From Serinicoccus sediminis (lineage in GTDB: Bacteria; Actinomycetota; Actinomycetes; Actinomycetales; Dermatophilaceae): 64,000 nt of DNA. The notes beneath the pieces are model-generated. The model worked only from the letters and a program-made list of their open reading frames with translations. It made no database searches and was not told the DNA's origin. The DNA lies in the NCBI RefSeq assembly GCF_004153545.1, contig NZ_SDVA01000004.1, forward strand, positions 124,001 through 188,000. The letters run 5' to 3'. The translations under genes and the position numbers were made by a program. Below are positions 4,145-27,437 of this stretch, piece by piece; position 1 is the first letter of the stretch, and the number at the start of each line of letters is the position of its first letter.

Positions 4145-4245
4145 ACCCCCACTGAAGCACCCCCCACCGACAGACCCGCTGACCTGCGCCGACGCCCATG
4201 ACAGACGTCACGCGCCCGCGCGCGCCGCAGTGGCAGGCTGGTGGC

Positions 4246-5939: not shown

Positions 5940-5952
5940 GGCCGTTCGGGTG

Positions 5953-6891: not shown

Positions 6892-6893
6892 AA

Positions 6894-7736: not shown

Positions 7737-7851
7737 AACCGGGTAGCGTGTATGCACACGTCATCCACACACAGTCCCCAGATCCACCCACAGAACGCCC
7801 GTCACAGGGGGCGTTCGCGCCGCGCTGCCGCGAGACCGAAGGAGGCGAGTC

Positions 7852-8331: not shown

Positions 8332-8409
8332 ACACGGGTATGTCAGTACCCACCGCTTGACTCATATCAGCAACTCCGAGCACGACACCACACACAGGGA
8401 GAGCTAGTC

Positions 8410-11298: not shown

Positions 11299-11311
11299 CA
11301 CTGTTTGTCGA

Positions 11312-11350
11312 CCACATGGGCTGTCCGGAGTTTCCGGGCAGCCCATGTGG
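11312..11350 (+). terminator. Strong hairpin terminator after nrdJ
   Basis: A 17-bp stem (11312-11328 with 11334-11350, one G-T wobble) and a 5-base loop AGTTT begins 13 bp after the nrdJ stop. There is no long T-run, as is common in high-GC actinobacteria. Confidence 0.82.
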
Positions 11351-11711
11351 CGTCAGGTAGAGCGAGGTGAGGCTCGGACGTCGGCTGGTGGCAAATGCGT
11401 CCCGAAGCGATGGAAATAGAAGCGCGAGGCTGCTGCACAGTCAGGTGGCATCTGATCTGTGACGCTGTGAGGCGTCTTGGAGGATGTGCATAGTGCTCAA
11501 GCCCTCCCCCAGAAACTCCGCGACGAGAGGGACAACGTCACGGGAAACTGTGAGCCTGGACAGACGATGAAGCAGACTGGCCGCTCACGCAATCTGATCT
11601 ATCCTGTCCTCAACCCGTGGAGTCACCGACCCACCATCGGCATTCGATCGGCGTCGGCTGGAACAAGGCCGTTGTCGGCTGGAACAAGGCCGTTGTGCCA
11701 AGCTGTGCATC
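11351..11711. other. Gene-free left edge of the island
   Basis: About 360 bases with no convincing gene. An 81-codon frame starting at 11477 has no protein-like features and reads through the tandem repeat at its end. The promoter of the HNH gene must lie here, but I cannot assign a -10/-35 pair with confidence. Confidence 0.5.
11653..11694 (+). repeat. Perfect tandem duplication of 21 bp
   Basis: The unit GTCGGCTGGAACAAGGCCGTT occurs twice back to back (11653-11673 and 11674-11694), ending 17 bases before the HNH gene's ATG. It sits where promoter or operator elements would be expected. Confidence 0.9.
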
Positions 11712-12692
11712 ATGGACAGTAGCGTTCCTCAGCGAGCGTGGCTACTCATGGCTGCGGGGGACAAACGCGGACACGGGGGCAACGCAGGATACGACGACCA
11801 GTACGACGCGCATTACTCATGGGACAGCAACGTTCCGAACTACAGCAAGCTTCGGGTGGGCGATCCTGTCGCTCTATGGGACAAAGAGCGCCTACTCGGC
11901 ATCTCGGTGCTCGAGGAGATTGAGATCACGCGCGGTTCGAAACTTCTTTACCGTTGCCCCGCATGCAACACCACTCGAATCAGTGAGCGAAAGAAAGTCG
12001 AGCCCCGGTATCGTTGCATGAAATGTCGCTATGAGTTCGTGAAACCCCTTGTCGACATTGTCGAAGTTGACCTATATAGAGGGAGGTACGACGCGGCATG
12101 GGTGTCGCTCGATGGGCTATTTGACCAAAAAGCAGTTCGGTCCTACGCGGTGAATAAGGGTGACATCAACGCAATGCGTCCGATCGATTGGGCAGCCTTC
12201 GGAAACGCGCTCATTGCGAAGGGAGCTGGACGTGCGGTCGACCGAGTGGCAGCACGCGTAGACAACAGTTGGGCGTCCTCTCGTGGGCTGCCCATGGCAC
12301 CTCAAGGGTTTATGCAATCCCTTGTCCGAGTCCGCAGGGGACAGCGGCATTTTCGTGAGCATCTTCTAGCAGCCCAGGGAAACCTTTGCGCTTTCACTGG
12401 GGGTGCACCTAGCCAGGTCCTAGAGGCAGGGCATCTGTACAGCTACGCCCAGGTCGGTACTCACTTCGAACACGGCGGAATGATGCTTCGTAGAGACATC
12501 CATCGCTTATTCGACGATGGGATGCTTGCAGTCCAGCCGTCAAACATGAGAATCGACGTCGCTCCGACCCTTGAGAGGTTTCCTCAATACGCTCGACTGC
12601 ATAACCAACCACTGACCTTGCGCCTACGGGACGAGCAGGTGGACTGGCTGAGCATGCATTGGCGGGAGCACCAGCTAATGCACTTGGGCTGA
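11712..12692 (+). CDS. HNH endonuclease with N-terminal PUA/EVE-like domain and zinc ribbon
   Basis: 326 residues in three parts. Residues ~8-75 ('RAWLLMAAGDKRGHGGNAGY', 'LRVGDPVALWDKERLLGISV') look like a PUA/EVE-type beta-barrel. Residues ~85-115 hold a four-Cys zinc ribbon ('CPACNTTR...RYRCMKCRYEF'). The C-terminus is an HNH_2-type nuclease: 'NLCAFTGG', 'EAGHLYSYAQVG', 'GGMMLRRDIHRLFDDGML', with the catalytic His residues present. EVE/YTH-like domains fused to HNH nucleases are known as modified-base readers in modification-dependent restriction, so a role in cutting modified phage DNA is inferred. It has its own transcript, convergent with the methyltransferase gene. No good ribosome-binding site is visible ahead of ATG 11712. 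Confidence 0.78.
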   Translation: MDSSVPQRAWLLMAAGDKRGHGGNAGYDDQYDAHYSWDSNVPNYSKLRVGDPVALWDKERLLGISVLEEIEITRGSKLLYRCPACNTTRISERKKVEPRYRCMKCRYEFVKPLVDIVEVDLYRGRYDAAWVSLDGLFDQKAVRSYAVNKGDINAMRPIDWAAFGNALIAKGAGRAVDRVAARVDNSWASSRGLPMAPQGFMQSLVRVRRGQRHFREHLLAAQGNLCAFTGGAPSQVLEAGHLYSYAQVGTHFEHGGMMLRRDIHRLFDDGMLAVQPSNMRIDVAPTLERFPQYARLHNQPLTLRLRDEQVDWLSMHWREHQLMHLG

Positions 12693-12801
12693 GAAGCAAC
12701 CGTATCCTCGGAGAAGTGACGCTCTATGGGAACTGGAAACCTCACTTGTAAAGAACCAACTCGGCTGGGATTAACCCATCCCTACGCCTCTCAGTTGGCT
12801 C

Positions 12802-13872
12802 TTAGGCGGCGCGGCGCAGAATGTGCTTGGCCAAGAGATTGCCTATGGAAAGCGCCATCGGAGGTGGAACGGCATTGCCGATCTGGCGCGCAATGGCTGC
12901 TTTGGACCCGACCCACCGGAAGTCTTCTCGGAATCCCTGGATCAGCGCAGCTTCGTAGTGCGTTATCGCTCGGTCAGCACTTGGGTGAAGGTAACGTCCC
13001 TTCTCAGGCTTGAAAAACTCGGTACGGATCGTGACGGAGGGCTTGTCCCATGTCAGCCTCCCCATCACATCGCCAGCACCCGAGGTGTGGCGTCGCCAAC
13101 AGTCCATCTGAAGTTCGTCGGGGAGGTCGCGTCGATTCCCGCCAGGTGGTATCGCCTGATAGCGCGCCAGCGAGATGGGGGTAGGCTGACGAGTGAAATG
13201 CAACTCATGAGTGAAATAGGCGCCTGGGTAAGCATTGCCCCTGAACTCAATCGCTCGGGGCGATGGGGGGTTTATGGCACTCACGTCGGGCGACACTTTC
13301 GCCAGCGCATCGCGAACCGTGGGGATGCGCAAGTGGGGCATTGGAGCGCCAAGGGGTGGCAAGTCTTTGGGGCGACCTACGACGATGGCGCGGCGTCGTA
13401 CTTGAGCAGTACCGTAATCGCTAGCGCGCAAGATATGCGTCTCTAGTCTCCACTGACGCAGATTGCCCTTGGGGCTTGTGGTTTCTCTCTCAAGCAGGGC
13501 ATACTGACCAGACTTGAGAAACTGTGGAACATTCTCAATGACGAAAAAGACTGGCCTGATGCGTCGGATTGCATCGACATACTGTAGCCACAGATTATTT
13601 CGGGGATCATCGGGATCCTGCTTGCCGAGTGGGGAGAAGCCCTGACAAGGGGGGCCGCCTATCACGACCTCAGCGAGCGGCAGTGGACCCTGCACCCAGT
13701 CCCTGATGTCACCCACATGGACGTGGTCCCCAAAATTCTGCGCGTAGGTCGCGGCAGCCGACGCGTCCATCTCAACAGCGGCGACTGGCACGTAGCGCCC
13801 TGTCTGCATAAAGCCGTCCGTCAGGCCACCGCAACCGCTGAAGAGATCGACGAGGCGCAGCAGCTCTGACAT
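12802..13872 (-). CDS. DNA (cytosine-5)-methyltransferase, DrmMII-like
   Basis: 356 residues with the ordered motifs of m5C methyltransferases: I 'LVDLFSGCGGLTDGF' (residues 7-21), IV 'GGPPCQGFSPLG' with catalytic Cys76, VI 'VIENVPQF' (Glu113), VIII 'AQVRRRA' (Gln157, Arg159, Arg161), and X 'ARQIGNAVPPP' near the C-terminus. A target-recognition domain of about 100 residues lies between VIII and X. In class 2 DISARM a methyltransferase of this type marks host DNA as self. The frame is open upstream to 14250, but the family start is ATG 13872, with GAGAAGGTAGGAGG just ahead. It is transcribed away from the helicase operon; a divergent control region of about 250 bp separates them. Recognition sequence unknown; the neighbouring vsr gene hints at a Dcm-like site. 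Confidence 0.93.
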   Translation of the reverse strand: MSELLRLVDLFSGCGGLTDGFMQTGRYVPVAAVEMDASAAATYAQNFGDHVHVGDIRDWVQGPLPLAEVVIGGPPCQGFSPLGKQDPDDPRNNLWLQYVDAIRRIRPVFFVIENVPQFLKSGQYALLERETTSPKGNLRQWRLETHILRASDYGTAQVRRRAIVVGRPKDLPPLGAPMPHLRIPTVRDALAKVSPDVSAINPPSPRAIEFRGNAYPGAYFTHELHFTRQPTPISLARYQAIPPGGNRRDLPDELQMDCWRRHTSGAGDVMGRLTWDKPSVTIRTEFFKPEKGRYLHPSADRAITHYEAALIQGFREDFRWVGSKAAIARQIGNAVPPPMALSIGNLLAKHILRRAA

Positions 13873-13993
13873 GCCTCCTACCTTCTCACGGGTCAGCAGG
13901 CGGTCACGAGAGGCTCGCCATGGCTGGGGATGACCGTTTACGGGACCCCGCTCTGCAATCGCAGTCCACCCCAGGTAGCATCCAAGCCAGCTG

Positions 13994-14011
13994 TCGACGC
14001 GGACGCGTCGA
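13994..14011. promoter_or_regulatory. 18-bp palindrome between methyltransferase and defence operon
   Basis: TCGACGCG-GA-CGCGTCGA is a perfect 8-2-8 inverted repeat, about 120 bp upstream of both divergent starts. It is a candidate operator coordinating methyltransferase and effector expression. No dedicated regulator gene is in the island, so the binder could be the methyltransferase itself or a host factor. Confidence 0.5.
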
Positions 14012-14124
14012 TGTTCATGGCTAGCCTGAGGGGTAAGGCTCGTTTTAACGCTGCCAGGCGAGGCAGACGGCGGGTTGGATGACGCTTGGGGTGGTCGGCG
14101 CTGACCCGAGGAGCGTGCGCGCGA

Positions 14125-17100
14125 GTGACATTCGACCCCCAGTCGTGGAAACCTGACGCAGGCCTTGCTCGCGAGGTCGAGGCCCAGTTTGGCAGGACGA
14201 TCGAGTCCTACCGGATACATCCTGACCTCGTCTCCGAGCACGCGAATCACGAGGAATCCATCCGTACCGGCGGCTATTCCAGCCGAACGCTTCTCGAGCT
14301 TGTGCAGAACGCTGCAGATGCGTTAGCCGGCACGGGAGAGCCAGGAGTCCCTTTCGCAGGTAGAGTGGAGATCGTCCTCGACACCGATCAGGGAGTGCTG
14401 TACTGCGCGAACGCGGGACGTCCTTTTTCTGCAAAGGGGATCGTAGCCATAAGTATGGCGCATCTGTCCGACAAGCGCGGGGACGAAATCGGTCGGTTTG
14501 GCCTGGGCTTCAAATCCGTGCTTGCTGTAACCGAAGCTCCCCAGGTCTTCAGCCAGTCTGTCTCTTTCGAGTTCAACTCGCTCCGCGCACGCACCGAACT
14601 TCAGAAGTTGGCAGCAGCGAAGCGGTATCCCGTGCTTCGCACGGCAACGCTGATCGACGCCGCCGCGGCCTTCGGAACCGACCCAGTGCTGGCAGGCCTG
14701 GCCTCTTGGGCGACGACGATCATCAAGCTCCCCGCTGTGACAAACATCGAGAGGCTACGGAGCGAGATCGAGAGCTTCCAGTCTGAGTTCCTTTTGTTTG
14801 TTGCTGCAGTTCGAGAGGTGAGGCTGCGTGTCATCGGCTCCGAACCGTTCGAAACACGGCATCTCTCTCGCGATCTCGGCGGCGACCTTTTCCGAATTGA
14901 GCGGCCCGAGGGTGAGGGCGACGACTGGATTGTCAAGAGTCGAATGCATGCTCCCTCGACGGAGGCGCGCAGGCAAGTCGGAGAGGCTGTCTCGCGCTCC
15001 GTGGTAAAGGTGACTGTCGCTGTGCCAACACGGTTCAGTCAGTTGGGGTTGGGTGAGTTTTGGTCCTACTTCCCCCTGCAAGACCGGACGACAGCTACCG
15101 GGCTTTTTAATGCGCCGTGGAGCGTCAACGACGACCGTACAACACTGCTGGAAAATGATTACAACCGGGAGATTCTCCGCTGCCTTAGTGAGATGTTCGT
15201 CGGGCTGCTGCCGAGGCTTTCGCACACCACGGATCCAGCGGCGCATCTCGATTACATGCCTGCCCGAGGCAAAGAGATTCGTGGCTTCGGGGACCGCCTG
15301 CTGACGATCAACGTTCCTAAACTAGCTGCCGTTCGAGCACTGATACCCGATGCGCGTGGAGCCCTCCGGAACGGTGCTGATCTCAAGCCGCTCGACTTCC
15401 GTGTTGGCTTCGATGTTGACGTCCATCAAGCGTGGATCAGGTCACCCAACACGGGCGATGACGTCCCTCACTGGCGCTGCTACTCTACGCCCACTCGAGC
15501 CACGCGTCTTCGTGATCTGTTCACCTCGGTGGTCGCGGGCGACGTCGACGCCAGTTCGCGTGACGTCAAGCGCGCGCTCGACACGCTGCCCAAGCGCGGA
15601 CTGCTGTCTTGGCTTCGAGAGTGGGCAGAGGGGGATGACCCTCAGTCGGCGGCCAACGCCTTCCGCACCGTGGCCCGTAATTCTGGTATCGATGGCATCG
15701 AAGGGGCCAAAGTCATCCCGACTACCGACGGCATGCGGCCTCTGACTGATCGCAACGTTGTATTTCTGAGCCGCGAGGCCGACCTCGAGGTTGATGGGGC
15801 TGTTTTCGTCGACACTGCCTTCCTCGCTGAGAAAGACGTAGAGAGGCTGCTGCGAGACCGCGGCTTCCGCAATCTCGACCCTCAGGCAATCCTCAATGCG
15901 CGGCTGGCCACACTATCGGTTACCGCGGGCGACGAGGCTTACACGAAAGTCTGGGACGCCGTTCTCGATTTGTCCGTTCACGAGGCCGTTAAGACGATAC
16001 GCGCCTCCACTGCACCGATCATGGTGCCCACTCAGGACGGCGGATGGGCCTGGCCGCGCCAAGTGATAGACGTGGACGTCGACCTGGGCGAGCAGTTTGC
16101 CTCGAAACTGCTCCATCGAAATCGCTGCGTGCCTGACGTCGCCACAGGGATCGGAGTGATTCGGCACCCGGTGAAGGATTTCCCTCTCGAGGACGAGCCG
16201 TTCTTGGAGCTGTACCAGCAGGGGGTGCTTACCGACCTGAATGCTCAGTTGGGCCCCGGTGACCGCCCCATCGACTCGATCGAACTGACTCCCGGCGAGG
16301 GGCCTGGCCCGTTCTCTGTGCTGTTCATGCTCCGCGATGCCGGCGCTCCCGCTCCGGTCCGGGAGGCCTGGACCACGGCTATGCTTGCTTTCGGCGACGA
16401 AGAGTGGATCTGCGAGGACCGAGACACACAGCGGACCTACTCTGTCACCTCGCCCCTCCGCTGGGCCGTGGAGCAGGCTGGCCTGCTCAGAACAGGCCGC
16501 GGATTTCGGCCGCCACCGGACGTTGTGGCCCCGTCGCTCGTCCGCTACAGCGGATTGCTCCCCTTGTATCAGGGTCCAAGGCAGGCAGTGGATCTGCTTC
16601 GCCTGCCGGACGAGCTTGAGTCTGTGTCTCCACGCGTGCTGCGGGAGATGCTCGAGGGTGAAGTCTTCCCTCGTGTCGACGACGACGTACTTGTCGAGTT
16701 CGTTGTGACCGCCAGCCGCATCGGTCTGGGGGGTGGCAAGCCCGCGAGCATCCCGGCACGCGTCAAGCAGATGGTCGAGCCCCGTCCACCCAACGCCGTG
16801 TACGTCGCGACGACCGAAGAGCAGGAGGAGTTTCTGCGCTTGAGGCAACGCCCCTACCTACGGGCATCCTCGGGCGAGGTCGAGGAACTGGTGCAGGTCG
16901 TGGGCTGCCGCCGGTTCGAGGACAGCTTCTCCTTCTCGATGGTCATCGAGGGGCAGCGGGACGGCGAGCCAATCACAGACAAGTTCACGGGGTTGCGCAA
17001 CGGCCTGTGGAGGGAGCGCGTAGCAAACTCGAAGGTAGCCCGTGCCCTTACTATCGCTCGGCGCGTGACGACAGAGGACGGCGTCGAGGACCAGCCGGCG

Positions 17101-18831
17101 GACTGGTACGTCGATGGTGTCGACCTCGTTGTGCGAAGCGACGCCGATGATAAGCAGGTGCTGCAGTTCGTCAGCGATGCATTCGACCTGAGCCTAGACA
17201 ACGCCCAGATTTCCAATGTGATGGAAGTCGGACTCAATTACAAATTGGAAGTTCTCCGCCAGCAGGCGCGCTCCGTGGAGTCGGACGCTGAGCGGCTAGA
17301 CCTCTATATCGGGCCAGACGACCTCAAGGAGGCCCTGCCCAAAGGCCTTTGGTCGGCTTTGGCCGCGCAGGGGCTCGTGGACGATGACACACCTGTGGCC
17401 GATCTGCTCCTCACCGTCTATGGATCCGACTCACTGCGTATCCTCGCGGATCGTTTCCGGGACGAGGGGTACTCGGATGTGCCATCTGCCTGGGCAGGGA
17501 CGCCAGCGGCAATCTCCTGGGTCCGCAAGATGGGATTTGGTGCCGAGTACGCCGGGCAGCGGCGACAGGCACAGCCCGAGGAGTTTGTTGTCCCAGGCGC
17601 CGTCCGTCTCAACAAGCTACACGGTTACCAGAAGAAGATCGGCGAAGATCTCCGAACTGTGTTGACTCAACCTTCGGCGAACGGCCCTGCTCAGAAAGGC
17701 ATGGTCGAACTTCCAACCGGCGCGGGCAAGACGCGCGTCGCGACAGAGACGATGCTCAAGCTTCTGATTGACGAGGTACTTGCGGGGACGGTCCTGTGGA
17801 TCGCCCAGTCGGTTGAACTCTGTGAGCAGGCCGTTCAGACTTTCCAGACGGTGTGGCGGTACCTTGGCGACGAGCGGCCGCTCACCATCGGCCGCCTATG
17901 GGAGGGAAACACTGTCCACGAGCCCGACACGGAGTTCGCCGTCGTGGTTGCGACGGACGCCAAGCTGGAAGCCGTCATGGGCCTGCCGGAATACGGGTGG
18001 CTCAAGTTTCCGGTAGCAGTGTTCATCGACGAGGCGCATCGGGCCGGAGGATCCAGCAGATACACCCGGATCCTGCGGTGGCTCGGTGTCGATGGACGGA
18101 GCTGGGAGCGTCCGCTTGTCGGTCTATCAGCGACGCCGTTCAAAGGCAGCGTCGAGAACGCGGAGGGGACCAGGGATCTGGCTGCTCGTTTCGGCCACAA
18201 TCGTTTAGCCGCATTCCAGACCAACGCGTACCAGGAACTGGTGAGGCTCGGCGTGCTCGCGAGGGTCGAGCATGAGATTTTGCCGACGGGCTTTGAGATC
18301 CCTCTCAATTCCGTCGAGCGAGCCACGCTCCAATCCACGCGACTCATCGACCGAAACCTCTACGAGCGGATCGGTCGCAGTGAAGCTCGCATGAAAGTCC
18401 TGGTGGAGCACATCATTGATCAAGACCCCGACTGGCCGATACTTGTCTTCACTCCCAGCGTCCTGTCAGCTCAGGTACTCGCCGCATCCCTGAGGTACCG
18501 CGGCCATAAAGCAAAATCAGTAAGCGGTCAGACGGGCCGTCAGGAGAGACGCAGTGTCATTCGAGACTTCCAAGAGGGCAAGATTCAAGTGCTTGCGAAC
18601 TGCGATCTGCTCGTGCAGGGTTTCGACGCCCCTGGCGTCCGGGCCCTATACATCGCCCGTCCGACGTTCAGCCCGAGTGCCTATATCCAGATGGCGGGAC
18701 GAGGGCTGCGCGGAAAGGAGAACGGCGGCAAGGAGCAGTGCCGCATCGTTGACGTGGCCGACAACTGGGGAGCAATGAACGACTTTCTAGGTTATCGGGA
18801 GTATGAAGACCTCTGGAAGGAGCAAGGCTGA
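14125..18831 (+). CDS. Giant GHKL-ATPase / SF2 helicase fusion protein
   Basis: 1568 residues. Residues ~50-180 form a sacsin/Hsp90-like GHKL ATPase: N-box 'LLELVQNAADALAG' (Glu58, Asn62, Asp65), 'CANAGRPFSAKGI' and 'GRFGLGFKSVLAVTE'. A central region of ~1000 residues has no motif I recognise. From ~1180 a superfamily-2 helicase follows: Walker A 'ELPTGAGKTRVATE' (~1198), DEAH box 'FIDEAHRAGG' (~1301), 'LVGLSATPFKG', and motifs V/VI 'LVQGFDAPGVRALYIARP' and 'QMAGRGLRG'. Both catalytic units look intact. This is first gene of the coupled operon and overlaps the next gene by one base. GTG 14125 was preferred to an upstream start at 14086 because GAGGAG lies ahead of it and the upstream part is not protein-like. 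Not a standard DISARM subunit; it occupies the place of drmE/drmD. Confidence 0.85.
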   Translation: MTFDPQSWKPDAGLAREVEAQFGRTIESYRIHPDLVSEHANHEESIRTGGYSSRTLLELVQNAADALAGTGEPGVPFAGRVEIVLDTDQGVLYCANAGRPFSAKGIVAISMAHLSDKRGDEIGRFGLGFKSVLAVTEAPQVFSQSVSFEFNSLRARTELQKLAAAKRYPVLRTATLIDAAAAFGTDPVLAGLASWATTIIKLPAVTNIERLRSEIESFQSEFLLFVAAVREVRLRVIGSEPFETRHLSRDLGGDLFRIERPEGEGDDWIVKSRMHAPSTEARRQVGEAVSRSVVKVTVAVPTRFSQLGLGEFWSYFPLQDRTTATGLFNAPWSVNDDRTTLLENDYNREILRCLSEMFVGLLPRLSHTTDPAAHLDYMPARGKEIRGFGDRLLTINVPKLAAVRALIPDARGALRNGADLKPLDFRVGFDVDVHQAWIRSPNTGDDVPHWRCYSTPTRATRLRDLFTSVVAGDVDASSRDVKRALDTLPKRGLLSWLREWAEGDDPQSAANAFRTVARNSGIDGIEGAKVIPTTDGMRPLTDRNVVFLSREADLEVDGAVFVDTAFLAEKDVERLLRDRGFRNLDPQAILNARLATLSVTAGDEAYTKVWDAVLDLSVHEAVKTIRASTAPIMVPTQDGGWAWPRQVIDVDVDLGEQFASKLLHRNRCVPDVATGIGVIRHPVKDFPLEDEPFLELYQQGVLTDLNAQLGPGDRPIDSIELTPGEGPGPFSVLFMLRDAGAPAPVREAWTTAMLAFGDEEWICEDRDTQRTYSVTSPLRWAVEQAGLLRTGRGFRPPPDVVAPSLVRYSGLLPLYQGPRQAVDLLRLPDELESVSPRVLREMLEGEVFPRVDDDVLVEFVVTASRIGLGGGKPASIPARVKQMVEPRPPNAVYVATTEEQEEFLRLRQRPYLRASSGEVEELVQVVGCRRFEDSFSFSMVIEGQRDGEPITDKFTGLRNGLWRERVANSKVARALTIARRVTTEDGVEDQPADWYVDGVDLVVRSDADDKQVLQFVSDAFDLSLDNAQISNVMEVGLNYKLEVLRQQARSVESDAERLDLYIGPDDLKEALPKGLWSALAAQGLVDDDTPVADLLLTVYGSDSLRILADRFRDEGYSDVPSAWAGTPAAISWVRKMGFGAEYAGQRRQAQPEEFVVPGAVRLNKLHGYQKKIGEDLRTVLTQPSANGPAQKGMVELPTGAGKTRVATETMLKLLIDEVLAGTVLWIAQSVELCEQAVQTFQTVWRYLGDERPLTIGRLWEGNTVHEPDTEFAVVVATDAKLEAVMGLPEYGWLKFPVAVFIDEAHRAGGSSRYTRILRWLGVDGRSWERPLVGLSATPFKGSVENAEGTRDLAARFGHNRLAAFQTNAYQELVRLGVLARVEHEILPTGFEIPLNSVERATLQSTRLIDRNLYERIGRSEARMKVLVEHIIDQDPDWPILVFTPSVLSAQVLAASLRYRGHKAKSVSGQTGRQERRSVIRDFQEGKIQVLANCDLLVQGFDAPGVRALYIARPTFSPSAYIQMAGRGLRGKENGGKEQCRIVDVADNWGAMNDFLGYREYEDLWKEQG

Positions 18832-20351
18832 TGATCCTCGTTCCCGCGCTCGCCGACATCGAACAACGCGCCACGAGTCCCGCTGAACGCGCATTCGCCC
18901 GTCTGCTGCGAGATGTCGTCGGAGACGCCGACGCGGTGGCATTCCATTCCGTCGACCTGCGTTCGCACTCCTACAAGCAGCAGGCCGAGGCTGATTTCGT
19001 CGTGCTTTGGAAGGGGACCGTCGTGGTTATCGAGATCAAGGGCGGCGGTGTGCGGAGGCACGACGGTATCTGGTACTCGGTGGACCGCCGCGGTGATTGG
19101 CACAAGCTGATCGGCTCACCGATGGAGCAGGCGCGGTCGGCGGCCTTCGCGTTGCGTGACATCCTGCGCGAGGAGGGCATCGGCTGGTTTGCACATGAGT
19201 CCGTCGTCGTGACGCCAGACATCGACGCTCCTCCACACGCGGTCGGCTGGCTACCGACACATTGGCTCGCGCGTGACGACATGACGATCGCCAAGCTCAC
19301 AGCGTCGCTCGACGCCGTCGTCGCCGGCGCGCGAACACCGCCGTCCAGCCAGAGGCGTGCGCGCACTAGTGACCTGCGGACCCGGCTGTTCGGCGAGTTT
19401 ACGCGCATGCCCGTCATCGATGCACAGCGTGGCGCCGTGATCGAGGAGCAGACACGCGCGACAGCGGGCCAGGCCCGAGTCCTCGCCGCCTTGGCCCGGA
19501 ACCAGCGCGTGCTTGTCTTCGGTGGCGCCGGAACCGGCAAGTCGCTTGTCCTTGTCGAGGCCGCTAAGCAGGAGGCAGACCAGGGCAGATCGGTTCTGAT
19601 CACTTTCCGGTCGCCAGGTCTTGTGCAGTTCTTCTCCCCGCACATCGCTGATCGTGACATCGATCTAGTTCCCTTCGAGAACCTCGCACGTGTCCATCCG
19701 CACGACGTCGTGCTGGTCGATGAGGCGCAGGACCTGATGACAGCTGAGGCCATGGACAGAATCGACACTGTGATTGACGGTGGGCGTGCGGCAGGACGTT
19801 GGCGCATGTTCCTCGACCCGAACAATCAGGCGCACGTGGATGGTGGTTACGACGAGGACGTCGCCGCCCTGGTAGCTGACGAAGCCATCTCGGTCGACCT
19901 GGATCTCAACGTCCGTAACACTCGCGCGATCGTTCACGTCGTCCAGGAATACCTCGGCGCCGACATCGGCGACCCCGGCATCGTCCATGGCGAGAAGGTC
20001 GCGTGGCACACGACCCCGGGGGACGCATCCGTTGCAGACGCAGAAGCCCTGGCGAAGGAGCTCCTCGCAGACGGTGCACGTCGGGATCAGACCTGGATCA
20101 TCGATGTCGCGTCCAGCGATGCCCCACGCACCAGCGCGGCAGGATTCACCGTTACCAGCCCGAGGTACGCGAAGGGGCTAGAGGTGGAGCATGCTCTCGT
20201 GTGTGGGCTCCCGGTCGACTTCGATAGGGCGAGCATCGCCGCTTTCTACGTTGCTGTCACTCGCGCCCGGGTCTCGCTGCACATCCTGGCGTCGAAGGAC
20301 GACAAGAAGCGCCTCCAGAAGCTTGTTCGACAGCGGATGGTGACCGAATGA
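18831..20351 (+). CDS. NERD-domain nuclease / superfamily-1 helicase
   Basis: 506 residues. The N-terminal ~130 residues match the NERD (nuclease-related) domain: 'SPAERAFARLLRD', then 'EADFVVLWKGTVVVIEIKGG' carrying the Asp and Glu-x-Lys metal-site pattern of restriction-endonuclease folds. From ~220 an UvrD/DUF2075-like helicase core is present: Walker A 'VFGGAGTGKSLVLVE', Walker B 'VVLVDEAQDLM', and motif VI 'FYVAVTRARVSLHILAS'. The combination suggests coupled DNA translocation and cutting (inference). It lies between the giant helicase (TGATG, 1-base overlap) and the DrmA-like gene (ATGA, 4-base overlap), so all are translated together. In this locus it is the best candidate for the nuclease function that the phospholipase-D protein DrmC may supply in DISARM. 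Confidence 0.85.
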   Translation: MILVPALADIEQRATSPAERAFARLLRDVVGDADAVAFHSVDLRSHSYKQQAEADFVVLWKGTVVVIEIKGGGVRRHDGIWYSVDRRGDWHKLIGSPMEQARSAAFALRDILREEGIGWFAHESVVVTPDIDAPPHAVGWLPTHWLARDDMTIAKLTASLDAVVAGARTPPSSQRRARTSDLRTRLFGEFTRMPVIDAQRGAVIEEQTRATAGQARVLAALARNQRVLVFGGAGTGKSLVLVEAAKQEADQGRSVLITFRSPGLVQFFSPHIADRDIDLVPFENLARVHPHDVVLVDEAQDLMTAEAMDRIDTVIDGGRAAGRWRMFLDPNNQAHVDGGYDEDVAALVADEAISVDLDLNVRNTRAIVHVVQEYLGADIGDPGIVHGEKVAWHTTPGDASVADAEALAKELLADGARRDQTWIIDVASSDAPRTSAAGFTVTSPRYAKGLEVEHALVCGLPVDFDRASIAAFYVAVTRARVSLHILASKDDKKRLQKLVRQRMVTE

Positions 20352-23300
20352 CCCTCACCCGTGCGCAGAAGGCAGTACTCGATCATCTTCGCTCCGCCTA
20401 CGTCGGGCCAGACGGTGGCGATGACGAGACAATCGAGAATCTCCCCAACAGGCAGTACGCCGTGGGTTTGCTTTTCCCTCGAGAGAACGGCCAGCCCGTC
20501 ACCGACGACGGTGCGGGGCACGCCCTCTCGAACGAGGACCAAGACATCAAGGCAGACGTCGCGGCGACAGGCGAGGTCGAGGAACAGGGTGCTGGCGTGC
20601 CGATCGCCGAAGACTGGCGACCATCGTCGATCGCGATCTCGTTCGTCACAGACCGTCCTTCGGTCCGCTGCGACTTGAGTGGAGCCACTTATGCTCAGGT
20701 GGATGACGACGGTCCGCCGCGCTGGCGAAGGCACGCCTTCGCTTTCGAAGGGCTCGAGTTGGGCGAGGGTGCTGGCCCTAAGGAGCGAAACGCTGGCGCG
20801 GTACCGATCGAGGTGGGCGCCCGCTGGCGCGATCTCGGTGACCACCACCTGGTTACCGTCCACGCCCGCGTACTTGCCAAAGCGTCGGGTGAAGCCCGCG
20901 CAGATGCTGCCGCGAGCCTCTATCAGGTGGCCCTCAGTGTGCAACCCACCGAAGGTGGGACCATTTACGAGTACGACACCAACCGTTCCTTCGACCTCGA
21001 CGACGAGGCGGCCGAGCTGCGCCTCCGGTACCGGGAGCGGAAGGTATACGCCGTCGGCCACGGTATGGCCGCAGACTGGCATTTCACGGATAATCGGTGC
21101 ACCAGGGTGTGGCTCGACCCTGTCCCTTCCTTCGTTGTGCCCGCAATCGAGACGACTGGCTTCAAGAGCGGTACCACCGAAGCACGTGCCCTGCGCCTGG
21201 ACCACCTCGCAGACATCGACACCGCAACCGATGACGTCCTCGTTTCCCTCGACGCCTTCGTTGAGGCCTTCGCAAGTTGGGTCGCTGCGGAACGCGGACG
21301 CGTCGCCGCATTCGGGAACAGCAGCCAGGTCGCGGAGCAGATCGTTCGCCGTTCGGAGACAGCGTTAACCCGAATGCGTGAGTCTGTGGACCTGCTCCGT
21401 TGTCCAGCTCAAACGGACCTGCGCACCGCCTTCGCGCTCGGCATGGAAGCAATGCGCCTGCAGATGCACCAGGCCGCGCTTGGCCGCGGTGAGGAGTCTC
21501 CGCCTGCGTGGCGTCCGTTCCAGCTTGGTTTCCTCCTCCTCGCGCTTCCCTCCACCATCGACGACACGCATGTGGATCGAGGGCTTGTCGACCTCATCTG
21601 GTTCCCCACGGGCGGCGGAAAGACTGAGGCATACCTCGGTCTGGCTGCCATCGAGATCTTTTATCGTCGCCTCCTTCACGGGGCGTCTGGCGGTGGCACC
21701 GCGGTCATCACCCGCTACACCCTCCGACTCCTTACGGCGCAGCAGTTCCAACGTGCTGCGTCGCTCATTTGCGCAATGGAGCTGCTGCGTCGCCCGGATC
21801 GGTTGGCCGATCAGCGGGCGCGTGGCATGCTCCCTTTTACAATCGGTCTCTGGGTTGGCAATGAAGTAACGCCAGGCACCCGCAGAGACGCGAAGGCGGC
21901 ACTTGAGCGACTGCATAAGGCGGCACGGCCCGAGGAGGCAAATCAGTTCCAGGTCGAATCGTGCCCGTGGTGCAGTGCCGCGCTGCTGCCGGCGAACCGT
22001 ACGGCAAACCGTGCCGCATACGGTCTTCGGCTCGTGGGAAACGACGTCGTCGTCCACTGCACTCGGCCGAGCTGTGAGTTCAAAGACGAGCTGCCAGTCG
22101 CGGTGGTCGACGAGTCTCTCTACGAGGATCCCCCAACGTTCCTCCTGGCGACCGTAGACAAGTTCGCCCGACTGCAGTACCGTCCCGAGGCCGGGAAATT
22201 GCTTGGACTCAATACCGCATTCCGGCAGCCGTCGATGATCATCCAGGACGAGCTTCACCTGTTGTCAGGTCCACTCGGAACCACCGTCGCGGTCTTCGAC
22301 GCCGTGATCCAGATCCTGCTGGCCAGTGGCGGATCTACCCCTAAGATCGTGGCTTCCACCGCAACGATTCGGGCCTCGGACGAACAGGTTCGAGGACTCT
22401 ACGGTCGGTCCGTCGCACTGTACCCACCGTCTGGCCTCGACGACGACCGCACCTTCTTCTCTCGGCCGGTGTCGAGTGGCGAGGGTCGTTTGTACGTCGG
22501 CCTGATGCCCCAGTCCCTCTCGCAGGTGTCCGCGGTGGTCTCTGCCGCGTCACCCCTGATCGAGATCCCCGAGGTCCTCCCTTCAATTGCAGGAGTCGAC
22601 ACAACGCGCGATGCATACTGGACCGCCGTTTTTTACCACAACAGCCTGCGGGAGCTGGGTCGCACCGGCACGCTGGTGGTCGACGACGTCAATGGTCGCC
22701 TAGAGCCGCGTGCCGAACGACTCGGTCTACGGTTGCGGCGGGTACGCGCCGACAGAGTGCTGGAGCTCACCAGCCGGCGAGGTCCTGAGGAGTTGCCTAA
22801 CGATCTGCGTGCGCTGAAGCGCACCGCGGACTCCGAGGAGGCAATCGACGTTGTGCTGTCCTCCAACATGCTATCGGTCGGCATCGACATACCGCGCCTC
22901 GCACTGATGCTCATGGTCGGCCAGCCTAAGACGACGGCCGAGTACATTCAGGCCACCAGCCGCGTCGGGCGGGGTCAGGTCAAGGGCGTCATTACCACGC
23001 TGTTCCGTGCAAACCGTGCCCGCGACAGATCCCATTTCGAGACATTCCGGGGCTACCATGAGGCGCTTTACCGCAGCGTTGAACCGACTTCTGTCACGCC
23101 CTGGTCTCTGGCCTCACGCGACCGCTCTCTGGCTGGAGCGCTCGTGGTCTTGATACGGAACACGATCCCAATGCTTGCGCCGAACGACTCGGCGAGGAGA
23201 CTGGATCTGGAGGACCCGTCGCAGCTGACCACGATCGAGGCCCTCGTGGAGCGCTTGCTCAACCAAGTTGGGCTCGCGGACCCGCTAGAGACCGACGAGG

Positions 23301-23542
23301 CGCGTGCCCAGCTATGGGCGCTAATGCGTGACTGGGACCGACGAGCCAGCAACGCCCGCATCACGAGCGAGACCCTGCAGTACGACCGGCAGAAGGTCGA
23401 TGACCTGGCCCTGCTCAAGCGATTCGCGCAGGCCGGCGAGGGATGGGTCGTGGCCGACTCCATGCGGTCAGTCGAGCCAAATGTTGCAGTGGCGGTGCGT
23501 GAGCCATTCGAAGAGGAGTCCCGTGGAACGCATCCTGCATGA
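20348..23542 (+). CDS. drmA: DrmA-like DISARM helicase
   Basis: 1064 residues. The helicase core shows Walker A 'FPTGGGKTEAYLGLAAIE' (~residue 419), an unusual DEAD-box variant in 'MIIQDELHLLSGPLGT' (DELH, ~634), motif III 'VASTATIRAS' (~669), and motifs V/VI 'SVGIDIPRLALMLMVGQP' and 'YIQATSRVGRGQ'. This set, especially DELH-LLSGPLG, is characteristic of DrmA, the DISARM helicase. The N-terminal 400 residues are beta-rich with no motif known to me. A CxxC...C pair ('CPWCSAAL', 'CTRPSCEF') near residues 540-580 forms a likely zinc finger inside the core, as in DUF1998-linked helicases. DrmA works with DrmB as a DNA-binding, ATP-dependent complex that blocks incoming unmethylated DNA (published for other DISARM systems). 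Confidence 0.85.
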   Translation: MTLTRAQKAVLDHLRSAYVGPDGGDDETIENLPNRQYAVGLLFPRENGQPVTDDGAGHALSNEDQDIKADVAATGEVEEQGAGVPIAEDWRPSSIAISFVTDRPSVRCDLSGATYAQVDDDGPPRWRRHAFAFEGLELGEGAGPKERNAGAVPIEVGARWRDLGDHHLVTVHARVLAKASGEARADAAASLYQVALSVQPTEGGTIYEYDTNRSFDLDDEAAELRLRYRERKVYAVGHGMAADWHFTDNRCTRVWLDPVPSFVVPAIETTGFKSGTTEARALRLDHLADIDTATDDVLVSLDAFVEAFASWVAAERGRVAAFGNSSQVAEQIVRRSETALTRMRESVDLLRCPAQTDLRTAFALGMEAMRLQMHQAALGRGEESPPAWRPFQLGFLLLALPSTIDDTHVDRGLVDLIWFPTGGGKTEAYLGLAAIEIFYRRLLHGASGGGTAVITRYTLRLLTAQQFQRAASLICAMELLRRPDRLADQRARGMLPFTIGLWVGNEVTPGTRRDAKAALERLHKAARPEEANQFQVESCPWCSAALLPANRTANRAAYGLRLVGNDVVVHCTRPSCEFKDELPVAVVDESLYEDPPTFLLATVDKFARLQYRPEAGKLLGLNTAFRQPSMIIQDELHLLSGPLGTTVAVFDAVIQILLASGGSTPKIVASTATIRASDEQVRGLYGRSVALYPPSGLDDDRTFFSRPVSSGEGRLYVGLMPQSLSQVSAVVSAASPLIEIPEVLPSIAGVDTTRDAYWTAVFYHNSLRELGRTGTLVVDDVNGRLEPRAERLGLRLRRVRADRVLELTSRRGPEELPNDLRALKRTADSEEAIDVVLSSNMLSVGIDIPRLALMLMVGQPKTTAEYIQATSRVGRGQVKGVITTLFRANRARDRSHFETFRGYHEALYRSVEPTSVTPWSLASRDRSLAGALVVLIRNTIPMLAPNDSARRLDLEDPSQLTTIEALVERLLNQVGLADPLETDEARAQLWALMRDWDRRASNARITSETLQYDRQKVDDLALLKRFAQAGEGWVVADSMRSVEPNVAVAVREPFEEESRGTHPA

Positions 23543-25364
23543 CCTACGCCTGTCCGAGACCGTCTCTCCTTTCGGCGTCGGTGCGATCGTCGACATCCGC
23601 GGGGAGTCCCTGATCGCACCCGACACGTCGTGGTGGGACAAGCAGTTCGCACCTGAGGTCCATTGCGAACGCCTGGTGCGTCGCCTTGGCCCTAGCACGC
23701 TGCGAGAAGCCCCATCGCACTCTGGTCGTGCCGCCAGGGAGACCCGTGGCCTACTGTATTGGCGCTTTCCTGAGTGGCGCTTCTGCGAGCGATGCACAAG
23801 CCTTTCGCGCATAACTGGTCGTAAGAAGGGGAAATGGACGAACACCTGCGGGTGTGGGGGATCACTCGTCCCTATGCGCTACGTGGCGGTCTGCCAGACG
23901 GGTAGCCACATTCAAGACATCGAGTGGTTCAAGTGGTCCCACCGAGGGCAGGACGCGGGCGTCACCGAGGCCGTGCGGCATTGCCGCTCCTTCAAGGAGC
24001 TGAAGTTCGTTCGGTCTTCGAAGCATGGTGAAGGGCTGGGGTCGTTGCGGGTCGCCTGCAGCGGGTGCAAACGCACACGTTCTTTGAGCGACCTTGTGAC
24101 CAAGGAATCACTCCGTCGCGATGGCATTCGCTGCAATGGCACCCAACCATGGGAGGACGTCACGCCTTCTGAACCGTGCGAGTCCCCATTGACCGCTGTG
24201 CAGCGCGGCGCAACGGGGAACTATCTCGCAGAACGGATCTCCGCTCTCGACATCCCCGAGGAGCGCCCACGCTCCTCCCGCAAGGCCGAACGGATCCGTG
24301 GGCATATGTTCTTTGAGAAAGTTGTCGCTGACAACGGAGGACCGCAGGCTGAGATGGTCGCAGGTTGGATCGCCAACGAGCTTGGCGTGACTCCCGAAGA
24401 TGTGCTCAAGGTGGCCGCAGACGGAAACGACGCCGCCGAAGATGACGTGCTCCTGGACCTCAAGGACGGCGAATGGGCCGCATTCTTGAAGAAGTTCGAG
24501 AGGGGAGGTCGCGACCGTGGCGGGGGAGACTTCGTGGTCGACGGGTGGCGGTTCGCTGATCATCCCGAGGCGCCTGATGCCCTAACGCACGCAGTGGTAG
24601 CCGTTGGGCAAGTCCACCGCGTGCGCGAGGTGCGTGCCCTCAAGGGCTTTCGTCGGCACTCTGCCGCCGCCGAGCTTATCTCCGCCGACCTAAGCATTGA
24701 CGGCAAGCGTAAGCCTGTCTATCCGGCAACCGAGATGTTTGGCGAGGGCATCTTTCTCCAGTTCAACGAAGAGCACCTCGCCAGGTGGGAGTCCCTACCG
24801 GAGGTTCAGGCGCGCGCCGCAATCCTCACCAACCGACGTCGAGAAACGATGTGGGCCCAGCGACTCGACATCCCGGAGGCGAGGTATTTAGCCCTGCACA
24901 CCATTGCGCACCTGCTCATACGCCGCCTCGCCTACGCGAGCGGATACTCTTCCGCGTCACTCCAGGAGCGGGTCTATGCGCGCTCCGATCGGCCAGACCC
25001 AACCGCTGGCATCCTGATATTCACAGCGGCGGGTGACGCGCAAGGCACTCTGGGCGGGCTGGTACGTCTCGCCGATCCCGTCAAACTAATTCCCCTGTTG
25101 ATTGCCGCGCTCGACGACGCTGACGTCTGCTCCAATGACCCTGTCTGCATCGAGAGCGACCGTCAGGGTTCTTCAAGTCTCAATCTCTCTGCGTGTCACG
25201 GTTGTTCGCTGGTCAGCGAGACCTCATGCGAGACGTCGAACAGGCTTCTCGACCGGCAGTTGGTGCTCGGCGGAGGAAACGTGCCTGGGTTGCTGGACGC
25301 TGTGTTAGCGCAGGTGAGGGCACGCGGGGTTCAGTCAGCGCTCAAGGCGGAACGATTGGGGTGA
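23523..25364 (+). CDS. drmB: DrmB-like DUF1998 protein
   Basis: 613 residues. It begins 'VERILHDLRLSETVSPFGVG', followed by a Cys cluster ('FCERCTSL', 'TNTCGCGGSLVP') that should bind zinc. The C-terminal DUF1998 domain carries 'LALHTIAHLLIRRLAYASGY' with 'SSASLQERVYA' (~residues 457-485) and the Cys-rich end 'SACHGCSLVSETSCE' (~558). DrmB partners DrmA in DISARM and the pair is the invariant core of the system. The GTG start lies 20 bases inside the drmA-like gene and has GAGGAG at proper spacing, so translation is coupled; there is no upstream in-frame alternative that is protein-like. It is the last gene of the operon and converges on vsr, 89 bp away. Confidence 0.86.
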   Translation: MERILHDLRLSETVSPFGVGAIVDIRGESLIAPDTSWWDKQFAPEVHCERLVRRLGPSTLREAPSHSGRAARETRGLLYWRFPEWRFCERCTSLSRITGRKKGKWTNTCGCGGSLVPMRYVAVCQTGSHIQDIEWFKWSHRGQDAGVTEAVRHCRSFKELKFVRSSKHGEGLGSLRVACSGCKRTRSLSDLVTKESLRRDGIRCNGTQPWEDVTPSEPCESPLTAVQRGATGNYLAERISALDIPEERPRSSRKAERIRGHMFFEKVVADNGGPQAEMVAGWIANELGVTPEDVLKVAADGNDAAEDDVLLDLKDGEWAAFLKKFERGGRDRGGGDFVVDGWRFADHPEAPDALTHAVVAVGQVHRVREVRALKGFRRHSAAAELISADLSIDGKRKPVYPATEMFGEGIFLQFNEEHLARWESLPEVQARAAILTNRRRETMWAQRLDIPEARYLALHTIAHLLIRRLAYASGYSSASLQERVYARSDRPDPTAGILIFTAAGDAQGTLGGLVRLADPVKLIPLLIAALDDADVCSNDPVCIESDRQGSSSLNLSACHGCSLVSETSCETSNRLLDRQLVLGGGNVPGLLDAVLAQVRARGVQSALKAERLG

Positions 25365-25453
25365 AGTCGTCAAGCACTCTTGCCGTCCTTGCGGTGATCG
25401 AGACTATGGCGTCACCGCGAGGTGCTTCACCTTTGGCCACACTGGACACACGG

Positions 25454-25894
25454 TCAGTCTGTATCCTGACCACGTCCGCGCACGATGAAGGCCACACGGT
25501 TGGCGGCCTCCTCCGGGTCTGTGTGCTCCCATACCCGAATCGAAACCCAACCCACGGCAGCCAACCGAAAATCGGTGTCTCGATCGCGCTCGATATTGCG
25601 CATCGCCTTGCTGGCCCAGAATTCAGCGTTGCTCTTTGCGACGGTGAAGTGCTCGGGACAGCCGTGCCAGAAGCAGCCGTCGAGGAAGACTGCGATCTTC
25701 ACTCGGGTGAAGGCCAAGTCAGCTCGGCGTCTAACACCCGGGAGCGGGAGTCGGTAATCCACGCGGTACCGGAGGCCCAGTCCATGGACCGCCCTACGCA
25801 GTGCCAGCTCGGGCGCCGTGTCCCGTTGCTTGTTGGCGCGCATGCTACTGCGGACAGCCGGCGAGGTGGCCCACGATGCGCACGAATCGACCAC
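25454..25894 (-). CDS. vsr: Very short patch repair (Vsr) mismatch endonuclease
   Basis: 146 residues, usual Vsr length. Motifs are 'DTAPELALRRAVHGLGLRYR', 'RRADLAFTRVKIAVFLDGCF' with the catalytic Asp, and 'WHGCPEHFTVAKSNAEFWASK' with the active-site His and zinc ligands. Vsr nicks 5' of the T in T:G mismatches that arise when 5-methylcytosine deaminates, so it protects the genome from the mutagenic effect of an m5C methyltransferase; here that is presumably the one at 12802. GTG 25894 is the first usable start before an in-frame stop. It is transcribed towards the drmB-like gene. Confidence 0.93.
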   Translation of the reverse strand: MVDSCASWATSPAVRSSMRANKQRDTAPELALRRAVHGLGLRYRVDYRLPLPGVRRRADLAFTRVKIAVFLDGCFWHGCPEHFTVAKSNAEFWASKAMRNIERDRDTDFRLAAVGWVSIRVWEHTDPEEAANRVAFIVRGRGQDTD

Positions 25895-26279
25895 GGTGTC
25901 GACGATGCCATGGAGTGCTCAAGGCAACAACCCGCAGGGCCAGCACCCCGGGAGGTTAAGCCCCGACCGGCGCAGTCCAGGGGCGGCAGTTCATCTACTC
26001 GACGAGTGAGTCCAGGACGGTGGCGATCCGGGATACCTGGGACTCAATCGTGAGTCGATACCCGGGTCCTTAACTAGCCCCAGGCGACGTTGCCCCCCGC
26101 GGCGATGGTGTCGGCGGCAGATGGTGATGAGCGCGGACTAGCCTGCTTGCGCGCCGCTCGAGGAGCCACTCTCGAAAGAGCAGATATGCTTGCGCGGCCA
26201 GGGAACCGTGACAGCCTTGGTGGCTAATCTCTTCGCAGACGCGAGAGCGGCAGCCGGGTGGAGTCTGTCGGGCCCGATG
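25895..26279. other. Gene-free right edge of the island
   Basis: 385 bases upstream of vsr and downstream of the ROK gene. No protein-like frame on either strand, no tRNA and no recognisable att duplication. It contains one imperfect hairpin (26028-26065) listed separately. This is where composition returns to the high GC of the host. Confidence 0.5.
26028..26065 (-). terminator. Imperfect hairpin downstream of the ROK gene
   Basis: Perfect inner stem GACTCA-ATCG-TGAGTC (26041-26056) flanked by imperfectly pairing CCGGGATACC / GATACCCGG. It is placed to end leftward transcription from the ROK gene before vsr. Confidence 0.45.
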
Positions 26280-27437
26280 TCACGCCACCGTCACGCTGGC
26301 CGCCTCAATCGCCTCGGGGGAGAGCACGTGCTCGGCCGCCATGGTGGCAGCACCGAGCACGCCAGCCTGCGCCCCCGCCTTGGACGCCACGATCCGCAGG
26401 TGCTCGGTCGCCAAGGGCAACGACCGCTGATAAACGACCTCGCGAATCCCCGCCAGCAGGTGCTCGCCGGCCTCAGCGAGGCGCCCGCCGATGACGACGG
26501 CGGAGGGGTTCATGAGGTTGACCATGGTTGCCAGCACCTCGCCGATGTCACGCCCGGCCCGCCGCACCTCCTGCACGGCAGCAGCATTCCCCGCGCGCAC
26601 CAGCTCGACGACCCCCGCGGTCGAGTCGACCGCCACGCCGCCCGCGGCCAAGGCGGTCGCCAGCGCCGGGCCGGCCGCGATGGCCTCGAGGCACCCTTCG
26701 TTGCCGCACCGGCACATGACACCCTCGCCGCTGCTGACCCGCACGTGACCGAGGTCGCCGGCCGTGCCCTGCGCGCCCCGCTGCAGCCGTGAGCCCGAGA
26801 TGATCCCGGCGCCGATGCCGGTGGCCACCTTGACGAAGATGAGGTCGTCCACCGACGGCAGGTAGGCGCCCCGCTCGCCCAGGGCCATGATGTTGACGTC
26901 GTTGTCGACGAGCACGGGCACGGCATACGTCCGCTGGAGGTGGGCGGGCACGTCATACCGGTCCCACCCGGGCATGATCGGCGGGTTGATCGGCCGGCCG
27001 GTCGAGTGCTCGACCGGTCCCGGCAGTCCCAGCCCCACCGCCGCCAGCTCACCCACCGGCCGCCGCGCGTCCTCCAGCAGCTCACCGACCACCGACGTCA
27101 CCCACCCCAGCACCGCCTCCGGGCCGTCGGCCACGTCGAGCTCGGCCCGCCGCTCACCGAGCACCGTCCCGGCCAGGTCGGTCAGCGCCGCCACGGCGTG
27201 CGTCGCACCGACGTCCACCCCGGCCACGACCCGTGCAGCCGGGTTCATCGCGATGAGCGCCGGCGGCCGCCCTCCCGTCGACCGCGCCCCGCCCACCGGC
27301 GCCACCAGGCCCATCCGCAGCAGCACGTCCACCCGTGCCGCGACGGTGCTGCGCGCCATACCGGTCTCCTCGGCCAGCTGCGCACGCGTGCGCGGACGCC
27401 CGTCCCTCAGGAGCTCGAAGACATCGCTGGTGCGCAC
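26280..27437 (-). CDS. ROK-family transcriptional repressor of the sugar operon
   Basis: 385 residues. An N-terminal winged helix ('RTRAQLAEETGMARSTVAAR') precedes a ROK (sugar-kinase-fold) domain: 'VVAGVDVGATHAVAALTD', 'AVGLGLPGPVEHSTG' and the zinc motif 'CRCGNEGCLEAIAAG'. ROK repressors such as NagC/XylR release DNA on binding a sugar or sugar phosphate. Divergent from the ABC transporter gene with 93 bp between starts, which points to local control of that operon. GTG 27437 was chosen as the start that keeps the family's short arm before the helix-turn-helix; the frame stays open far upstream, across the transporter gene, but that part is an antisense shadow. Confidence 0.9.
   Translation of the reverse strand: MRTSDVFELLRDGRPRTRAQLAEETGMARSTVAARVDVLLRMGLVAPVGGARSTGGRPPALIAMNPAARVVAGVDVGATHAVAALTDLAGTVLGERRAELDVADGPEAVLGWVTSVVGELLEDARRPVGELAAVGLGLPGPVEHSTGRPINPPIMPGWDRYDVPAHLQRTYAVPVLVDNDVNIMALGERGAYLPSVDDLIFVKVATGIGAGIISGSRLQRGAQGTAGDLGHVRVSSGEGVMCRCGNEGCLEAIAAGPALATALAAGGVAVDSTAGVVELVRAGNAAAVQEVRRAGRDIGEVLATMVNLMNPSAVVIGGRLAEAGEHLLAGIREVVYQRSLPLATEHLRIVASKAGAQAGVLGAATMAAEHVLSPEAIEAASVTVA

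Follow-up and report, generated by a model that had tools for sequence, protein, structure and literature searches.

The locus considered here lies in a 64,000-nucleotide stretch of the Serinicoccus sediminis genome (positions 124,001 to 188,000 of contig NZ_SDVA01000004.1; the genome is 3.55 Mb in 97 contigs), which we call the window and whose own numbering is used throughout. Four plus-strand genes overlap one another between 14125 and 25364 and encode, in order: a fusion of a GHKL ATPase of the Hsp90/sacsin type with a RadD-like superfamily 2 (SF2) helicase (14125-18831, 1568 residues); a fusion of a NERD nuclease with a superfamily 1 (SF1) helicase (18831-20351, 506 residues); a DrmA-type SF2 helicase of the YprA family (20348-23542, 1064 residues); and DrmB, the DUF1998-type partner of DrmA (23523-25364, 613 residues). 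Neighbouring genes share 1 base (18831), 4 bases (20348-20351) and 20 bases (23523-23542, with a GTG start at 23523). A C5-cytosine DNA methyltransferase gene (12802-13872, minus strand, 356 residues) lies upstream and is divergent, and a Vsr endonuclease gene, vsr (25454-25894, minus strand, 146 residues), lies downstream and is convergent. We consider it probable, from gene content and conserved residues, that the locus belongs to an unnamed DISARM-like class of antiphage system, with the four overlapping genes as its core and an exchangeable 5-methylcytosine (m5C) unit beside them; this unit comprises the methyltransferase and vsr, joined in some loci by a restriction endonuclease.

An original prediction, made from the letters alone, had named a DrmA-like helicase, a DrmB-like protein and an m5C methyltransferase, and an operon that begins with the 1568-residue GHKL/SF2 protein and the NERD/SF1 protein and ends next to vsr. 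Profile searches recovered every one of these domains, and the open reading frame (ORF) coordinates agree with the overlaps and the 1568-residue length that it gave. The first protein scores 73.4 bits with NF047352 (sacsin/Hsp90 type; cut-off 50) and matches the RadD profile; the second carries PF08378 (NERD, 40.2 bits) and matches SF1-type helicase profiles. DrmA reaches 638 bits with the PADLOC DrmA model and 797.7 bits with NF038325, which is under the curated cut-off of 950, and DrmB 402 bits with NF038324 (cut-off 240). The methyltransferase matches PF00145 (182.8 bits) and TIGR00675 (above cut-off), and Vsr TIGR00632 (118 bits, cut-off 97.85). The start of the methyltransferase needed correction: its ORF reaches 14250, the start first assumed, but the most likely start is 13872, which has a good ribosome-binding site.

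The core was followed from its first gene with an 11-row GHKL alignment in 84,980 species genomes; 77 loci were kept from the best 80 of 174 matches, and these lean towards the window's relatives. DrmA and DrmB lie downstream on the same strand in 70 of the 77. By record title, 71 of the loci are from Actinomycetota, and the full gene set is present also in metagenome-assembled genomes (MAGs) of Acidobacteriaceae (L071) and Dehalococcoidia (L085). Another search, at phylum level, scored two candidates per genome and probably undercounts. Among 186 genomes of the family to which the window belongs, 10 (the window's own included) match the GHKL protein at E 1e-20; eight family loci (L019-L026) all have DrmA and DrmB, and a ninth (L027) has the helicase only. 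In one of the eight, L020, two ORFs (11299-16021 of that locus) take the place of a single GHKL-helicase gene, while NERD, DrmA and DrmB are full-length. The phages searched gave no match; plasmid searches with protein and with DNA each gave 15 records, in no case covering 80% of the query; and among 80 loci kept from viral contigs L193 alone covers most of it.

A second sample was anchored on DrmB: of 394 class genomes, 59 (the window's own included) have a DrmB-family match, at 70 listed places. We read 67 of these loci, omitting the window's own and two fragments that fell under the cut-off (one of them inside a fetched stretch); 16 carry the GHKL operon, 50 do not, and L170 was scored as carrying it although it holds only a 587-residue helicase. 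Pooling and deduplication gave 95 loci with GHKL and DrmAB and 50 other drmB loci. The 88 loci of the drmC comparison (below) are counted before deduplication, in which five duplicates, recognised by an identical central part of DrmA, were taken out; L031, of which L170 is a duplicate, was scored for GHKL on the 587-residue helicase alone, and the figures of 95 and 88 thus each include one false member.

The order GHKL, SF1, DrmA, DrmB on one strand was found in 89 of 90 deduplicated loci (the 95 minus four scored without SF1 and minus L020), and at the three core junctions the neighbouring genes abut or overlap in 84, 71 and 67 of 89 loci, with starts set by rule and so approximate. Distances between GHKL proteins correlate with those of DrmA (Mantel r 0.93), DrmB (0.915), the NERD-SF1 protein (0.965) and the UvrD-type SF1 protein found in other loci (0.928), with 0 of 999 permutations reaching any of these values; the tests do not correct for host kinship. 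In single FastTree runs, the DrmA tree and the GHKL tree each place the 28 loci of NERD type in one group of 30. The four core genes share one history, and the earlier claim that they are built as one unit holds well beyond the window. Defence islands do gather unrelated genes, and an assembly of independent defence genes by chance in one island could be imagined; given that tens of species keep the order and the overlaps and show matching histories, we find such an origin scarcely credible for the core.

Two versions of the SF1 gene occur. Of the 95 loci, 28 encode NERD-SF1 and 63 a GajB-like (UvrD-type) helicase without NERD; the script scored four as having neither, although L070 among them carries an SF1 protein of 489 bits, and the gene is truly absent in L050 and L105. 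The expectation that GHKL and NERD genes accompany drmAB thus stands for GHKL and only in part for NERD. Residues E19, E53, D55, E68 and K70 of the NERD domain are invariant in all 28 NERD-type proteins. For the UvrD-type protein, neither Pfam nor PADLOC recognised a nuclease domain in the one representative put through each of two scans, and there is no lysine among its columns conserved at 80%. It resembles UvrD1, and its Foldseek matches include the helicase-nucleases AdnAB, AddAB, RecBCD and Dna2, in which the aligned domain may be the helicase or the nuclease part.

In the GHKL-SF2 protein, the N, G1 and G2 boxes of the GHKL domain are invariant in all 92 rows that have letters there, and the SF2 motifs are present in all 93-94. 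The best PADLOC model, TmtA, covers residues 15-361 of the GHKL region (164 bits), with TmtA alignments reaching residue 585 at most, and among solved structures the SF2 part has its best relative in RadD. A predicted structure of residues 1-1151 (predicted local distance difference test score 87.8, predicted template-modelling score 0.53) gave 50 displayed Foldseek matches, all of the Hsp90 family, the best with E 1.5e-7. The model thus points to a GHKL domain of the Hsp90/sacsin kind, by fold type and not by close kinship, because the template-modelling scores were low. Relatives of this GHKL-SF2 fusion occur in Desulfobacterales and Chloroflexota MAGs (L084, L088, L095, L106) with no DrmAB in the DNA read, and the fusion may serve other systems too.

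DrmA is homologous to chain A of structure 7s9v over most of its length (E 7e-140), and DrmB to chain B (E 8e-61). Residues K803, R1294 and V1296 of Serratia DrmA were tested in vivo, as described by Bravo et al. (PMC9142583). Their counterparts here, K605, R1040 and V1042 (placed by alignment), are identical in 95 of 95 class loci; K605 and R1040 correspond to DNA-contact residues and V1042 to the published methyl-sensing valine. Among the other 50 DrmA proteins the V1296 equivalent is V in 34 and T or A in 16. The position that corresponds to Serratia R659 is uncertain. At the Serratia trigger-loop stretch, as judged by alignment only, the class has an acidic loop of 30-58 residues (median 41; on average 11.5 acidic and 3.2 basic residues), and five C-terminal cysteines of DrmB are kept in 95 of 95 loci. 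According to the same study, DrmAB of DISARM binds single-stranded and 5'-overhang DNA with no choice of sequence, and its ATPase activity is lowered by methylation (PMC9142583). Since the sensor and contact residues of DrmA are conserved, it is likely that DrmAB senses methylation here as it does in DISARM.

The modification genes follow another pattern. An m5C gene was found in 74 and vsr in 57 of the 95 pooled loci, on either side of the core; in whole class genomes any PF00145 gene was found in 94 of 197 and any vsr in 65 of 197. In the host, genome searches found only one PF00145 gene and only one vsr, and these are the two that flank the core operon. Mantel tests used methyltransferases above 300 bits (35 of the 74) and vsr above 150 bits (54 loci). 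In NERD-type loci neither gene tracks the core (methyltransferase r 0.06, 276 of 999 permutations, n=16; vsr r 0.09, 129 of 999, n=17), and at GHKL distances of 0.15-0.35 the median distance is 0.22 for DrmB, 0.53 for the methyltransferase and 0.52 for vsr (10 and 7 pairs for the last two). In UvrD-type loci the methyltransferase follows weakly (r 0.52, n=17) and vsr well (r 0.81, n=34); over all loci together the values are 0.20 (1 of 999) and 0.575 (0 of 999). At least in the NERD type, to which the window belongs, a constant core thus goes with an exchangeable mark, since methyltransferase and vsr do not track the core there. We considered vsr as a fixed subunit and rejected this on the same result; in UvrD-type loci it may be an effector or a simple traveller in the same block.

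Near the methyltransferase or vsr stand changing endonucleases: NaeI (L033, L102), AspBHI-like (L019, L102), HNH (L043 and the window) and MrcB-NOV (L173), with relatives of these four families somewhere in the DNA read of 6, 6, 10 and 5 of the 95 loci respectively. These counts are a lower bound, as only the four families were sought. The HNH gene of the window (11712-12692, plus strand; Pfam HNH_2, 32.4 bits) lies in the same island as the core, and its protein has a relative in one other of the 95 loci (L050); it is possible that it is the restriction endonuclease partner of the methyltransferase, and possible also that this gene was collected by chance. Such changing endonucleases, and modification genes that vary while the core does not, are what would be expected if the core were a degradation module downstream of the adjoining restriction system: the endonuclease or Vsr would cut or nick unmodified DNA, and the helicases and NERD would load on the ends, destroy the DNA and block its repair, with DrmAB sensing ends and not methylation. 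This is a coherent alternative, but a rather unlikely one in our judgement, for a recognised endonuclease is found in a minority of loci (the lower bound just given) and none of the 95 loci departs from V1042 at the published methyl-sensor position, where 16 of the other 50 have T or A.

A separate minus-strand cassette lies between methyltransferase and core in L055 (7040-9238 of that locus and two adjoining genes), with relatives in 29-31 of the 95 loci, nearly all of UvrD type. It encodes an XRE-HTH protein similar to PADLOC PDC-M33A, an unknown protein and a DUF6339 protein similar to PDC-M33C (one representative of each was compared), and may be a second system travelling with the class.

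The core and its flanking genes occupy a variable island from the 3' end of nrdJ to the 3' end of a ROK-family gene (11299-26279), delimited by congener comparison and GC content, which is 58-64% at 12001-26000, 72-73% at 1-6000, 64-67% at 6001-12000 (which holds nrdJ) and at least 71% after 26000. Seven stretches were taken from six congeners, and three (G108, G117, G125) are comparable on both sides: they align until 11298-11362, at the end of nrdJ, and resume at 26280-26295, with 2.4, 5.1 and about 24 kb between the aligned flanks where the window has 15 kb. On the right flank the alignment of G121 extends over no more than 136 bases, and G113 and G116 gave none within the stretch taken. 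The island is a variable slot, because congeners carry other DNA between the same flanks; with different cargo in each of the three two-sided congeners, the nrdJ/ROK-family slot is an integration hotspot of the genus (L186-L189). This location bears on whether the genes form a DNA-repair operon instead of a defence system. Relatives of YprA/MrfA, RadD, UvrD and Vsr all act in repair, RadD is the nearest solved structure to the SF2 part, and the UvrD-type SF1 protein is like UvrD1; the patchy occurrence (the 10 of 186 family genomes above), the place in a variable island and the frequency of restriction genes as neighbours nevertheless make a repair operon, to our mind, highly improbable.

Several observations weigh against our proposal of a four-gene class. 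Seven of the 77 GHKL loci have no downstream DrmAB: L075 is truncated where its contig stops; in L104, DrmA, DrmB and SF1 lie on the opposite strand; and in L084, L088, L089, L095 and L106 there is no DrmAB in the DNA read. With the two loci that have no SF1 gene, this indicates that parts of the core can be separate. DrmA proteins of the class do not form one clade, 20 others falling inside a group of 115, which suggests repeated gain or loss of the GHKL gene. Because Pfam and PADLOC recognised no nuclease domain in the UvrD-type form, roughly two thirds of the class lack an evident core nuclease. At the position of Serratia R810, 49 of the 95 loci have R and 20 have K, and the acidic loop is not specific to the class, as the 50 other DrmA proteins mostly have one too (median 44). 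In 21 of the 95 loci there is no m5C gene in the DNA read, in some through a contig end; and because methyltransferase and vsr do not track the core in NERD-type loci, the self/non-self logic set out below is a guess.

Related arrangements were seen besides. On one contig (L029 and L152) the GHKL-helicase gene lies about 27 kb from SF1, DrmA and DrmB, as a split operon; L152 is one of the 20 DrmA proteins just mentioned. In L146, L158, L160, L161 and L168 a NERD-helicase-like gene precedes DrmA and DrmB with no GHKL gene in the DNA read; a methyltransferase accompanies all five and vsr four, and these appear as further DISARM-like variants.

From these features we infer an antiphage activity, exerted by a complex of the core proteins, that would run as follows. 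The methyltransferase would mark host DNA. DrmAB, closed by its acidic loop, would load on phage DNA that is unmodified and either single-stranded or with a 5' overhang. Closure on ATP is a general property of Hsp90-type ATPases, and the one here could use nucleotide to clamp or license both the SF2 motor and DrmAB, or serve as a switch that couples the two. The NERD-SF1 protein would be the executioner, unwinding and cutting the strand; in loci without NERD, cutting might be done by Vsr, a partner endonuclease or host nucleases. Vsr is a candidate cutter in UvrD-type loci because vsr tracks that core, and because the YprA helicase of ARMADA bears a Vsr-type nuclease domain (Bell et al. 2025, PMC12458937).

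More tentatively still, and as a possibility we would not yet favour, the core may be a portable restriction engine: an Hsp90-gated complex of three motors with no modification enzyme of its own, which would protect the host through whichever m5C methyltransferase adjoins it. If so, one sequence-neutral executioner would pair with ever-changing marks. The proposed class would add a widespread actinobacterial member to the DISARM group, one in which the dispensable DrmC gives way to two new partners of DrmAB, an Hsp90-type ATPase and an SF1 helicase that in the window carries a nuclease. Since the core is constant while the methyltransferase changes in nature, it would also open to experiment the way in which DISARM kills and yet spares self.

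Our search for a named system with these subunits covered PADLOC 2.0.0, NCBIfam 20 and open-licence PMC papers (most subscription papers being outside that scope) and found none, in keeping with the original suggestion of a new, DISARM-like composition. Many uncharacterised DISARM-like classes are mentioned by Bell et al. (2025, PMC12458937), in whose text, as far as it was accessible, the present class is not named and in whose main text GHKL and Hsp90 do not occur. The ARMADA, BRIGADE and TALON systems described there have a YprA-family helicase in common with the window locus, and ARMADA also a Vsr-type nuclease domain, TALON a NERD nuclease and ARMADA II a GajB-like helicase; in these systems, however, YprA has a fused DUF1998 and other partners, whereas DrmA and DrmB are separate genes here. 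Models of BrxHII and PglX were absent from the PADLOC matches shown for the window proteins scanned. The same idea had been put forward by Iyer et al. (2008, PMC2292703), who predicted restriction systems that combine a GHKL ATPase with an SF2 helicase, an m5C methylase, Vsr and nucleases; DUF1998 and YprA do not occur in the accessible text. Those operons have GHKL proteins of the MORC and paraMORC families with SF2 helicases as neighbours, whereas the GHKL domain here appears, from NF047352 and its fold, to be Hsp90/sacsin-like, is fused to the helicase and goes with DrmAB. Gabija shares the SF1 helicase of UvrD/GajB kind (the 63 loci above), but here that helicase is accompanied by the GHKL-SF2 protein and DrmAB. 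The likeness to PADLOC TmtA, for which we found no naming paper in the open-licence PMC literature, is limited to the N-terminal GHKL region of the first protein. As for type II restriction-modification, the m5C gene is clear and an HNH gene adjoins it, and the pairing of the two is putative.

DISARM itself is the closest comparison. Class 1 DISARM has drmD and drmMI, and the methyltransferase of class 2 is drmMII. The original prediction had noted that drmC is missing; none was found in 16 of the window's ORFs, those scanned with PADLOC, nor in any of 88 loci with GHKL and DrmAB, against 29 of the 50 other drmB loci. Matches to drmD occur in 8 of 88 class loci against 17 of 50 others and to drmMI in 2 of 88 against 24 of 50, where any match was counted for the 88 and a cut of 40 bits applied to the 50; the comparison profiles came from L112, one of the 50, which carries drmD, drmMI and drmC. 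No drmD or drmMI model was among the PADLOC matches shown for the window proteins. We rejected the methyltransferase as a DrmMII, for it scores 298 bits with DruM2 and 248 with the type II model against 130 with DrmMII. The earlier claim of a DISARM-like locus of new composition is supported, with the refinement that the methyltransferase is not DrmMII-like and does not track the core in NERD-type loci. That the locus is ordinary DISARM with unusual accessory genes seems to us very unlikely: DrmA and DrmB are clear homologues with their functional residues conserved, and drmC is often missing from DISARM and not essential there (Bravo et al., PMC9142583), but the counts above, a DrmA under the curated cut-off and a four-gene core inherited as its own unit speak against it. 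What the proposed class has in common with DISARM is homologues of DrmA and DrmB, conserved methyl-sensor and DNA-contact residues, an acidic stretch like the trigger loop and a methyltransferase nearby; what sets it apart is the lack of drmC, of drmD and drmMI in the window and of a DrmMII-like enzyme, a modification gene that is exchangeable, and two additional motor proteins, one of them with an Hsp90-type ATPase.

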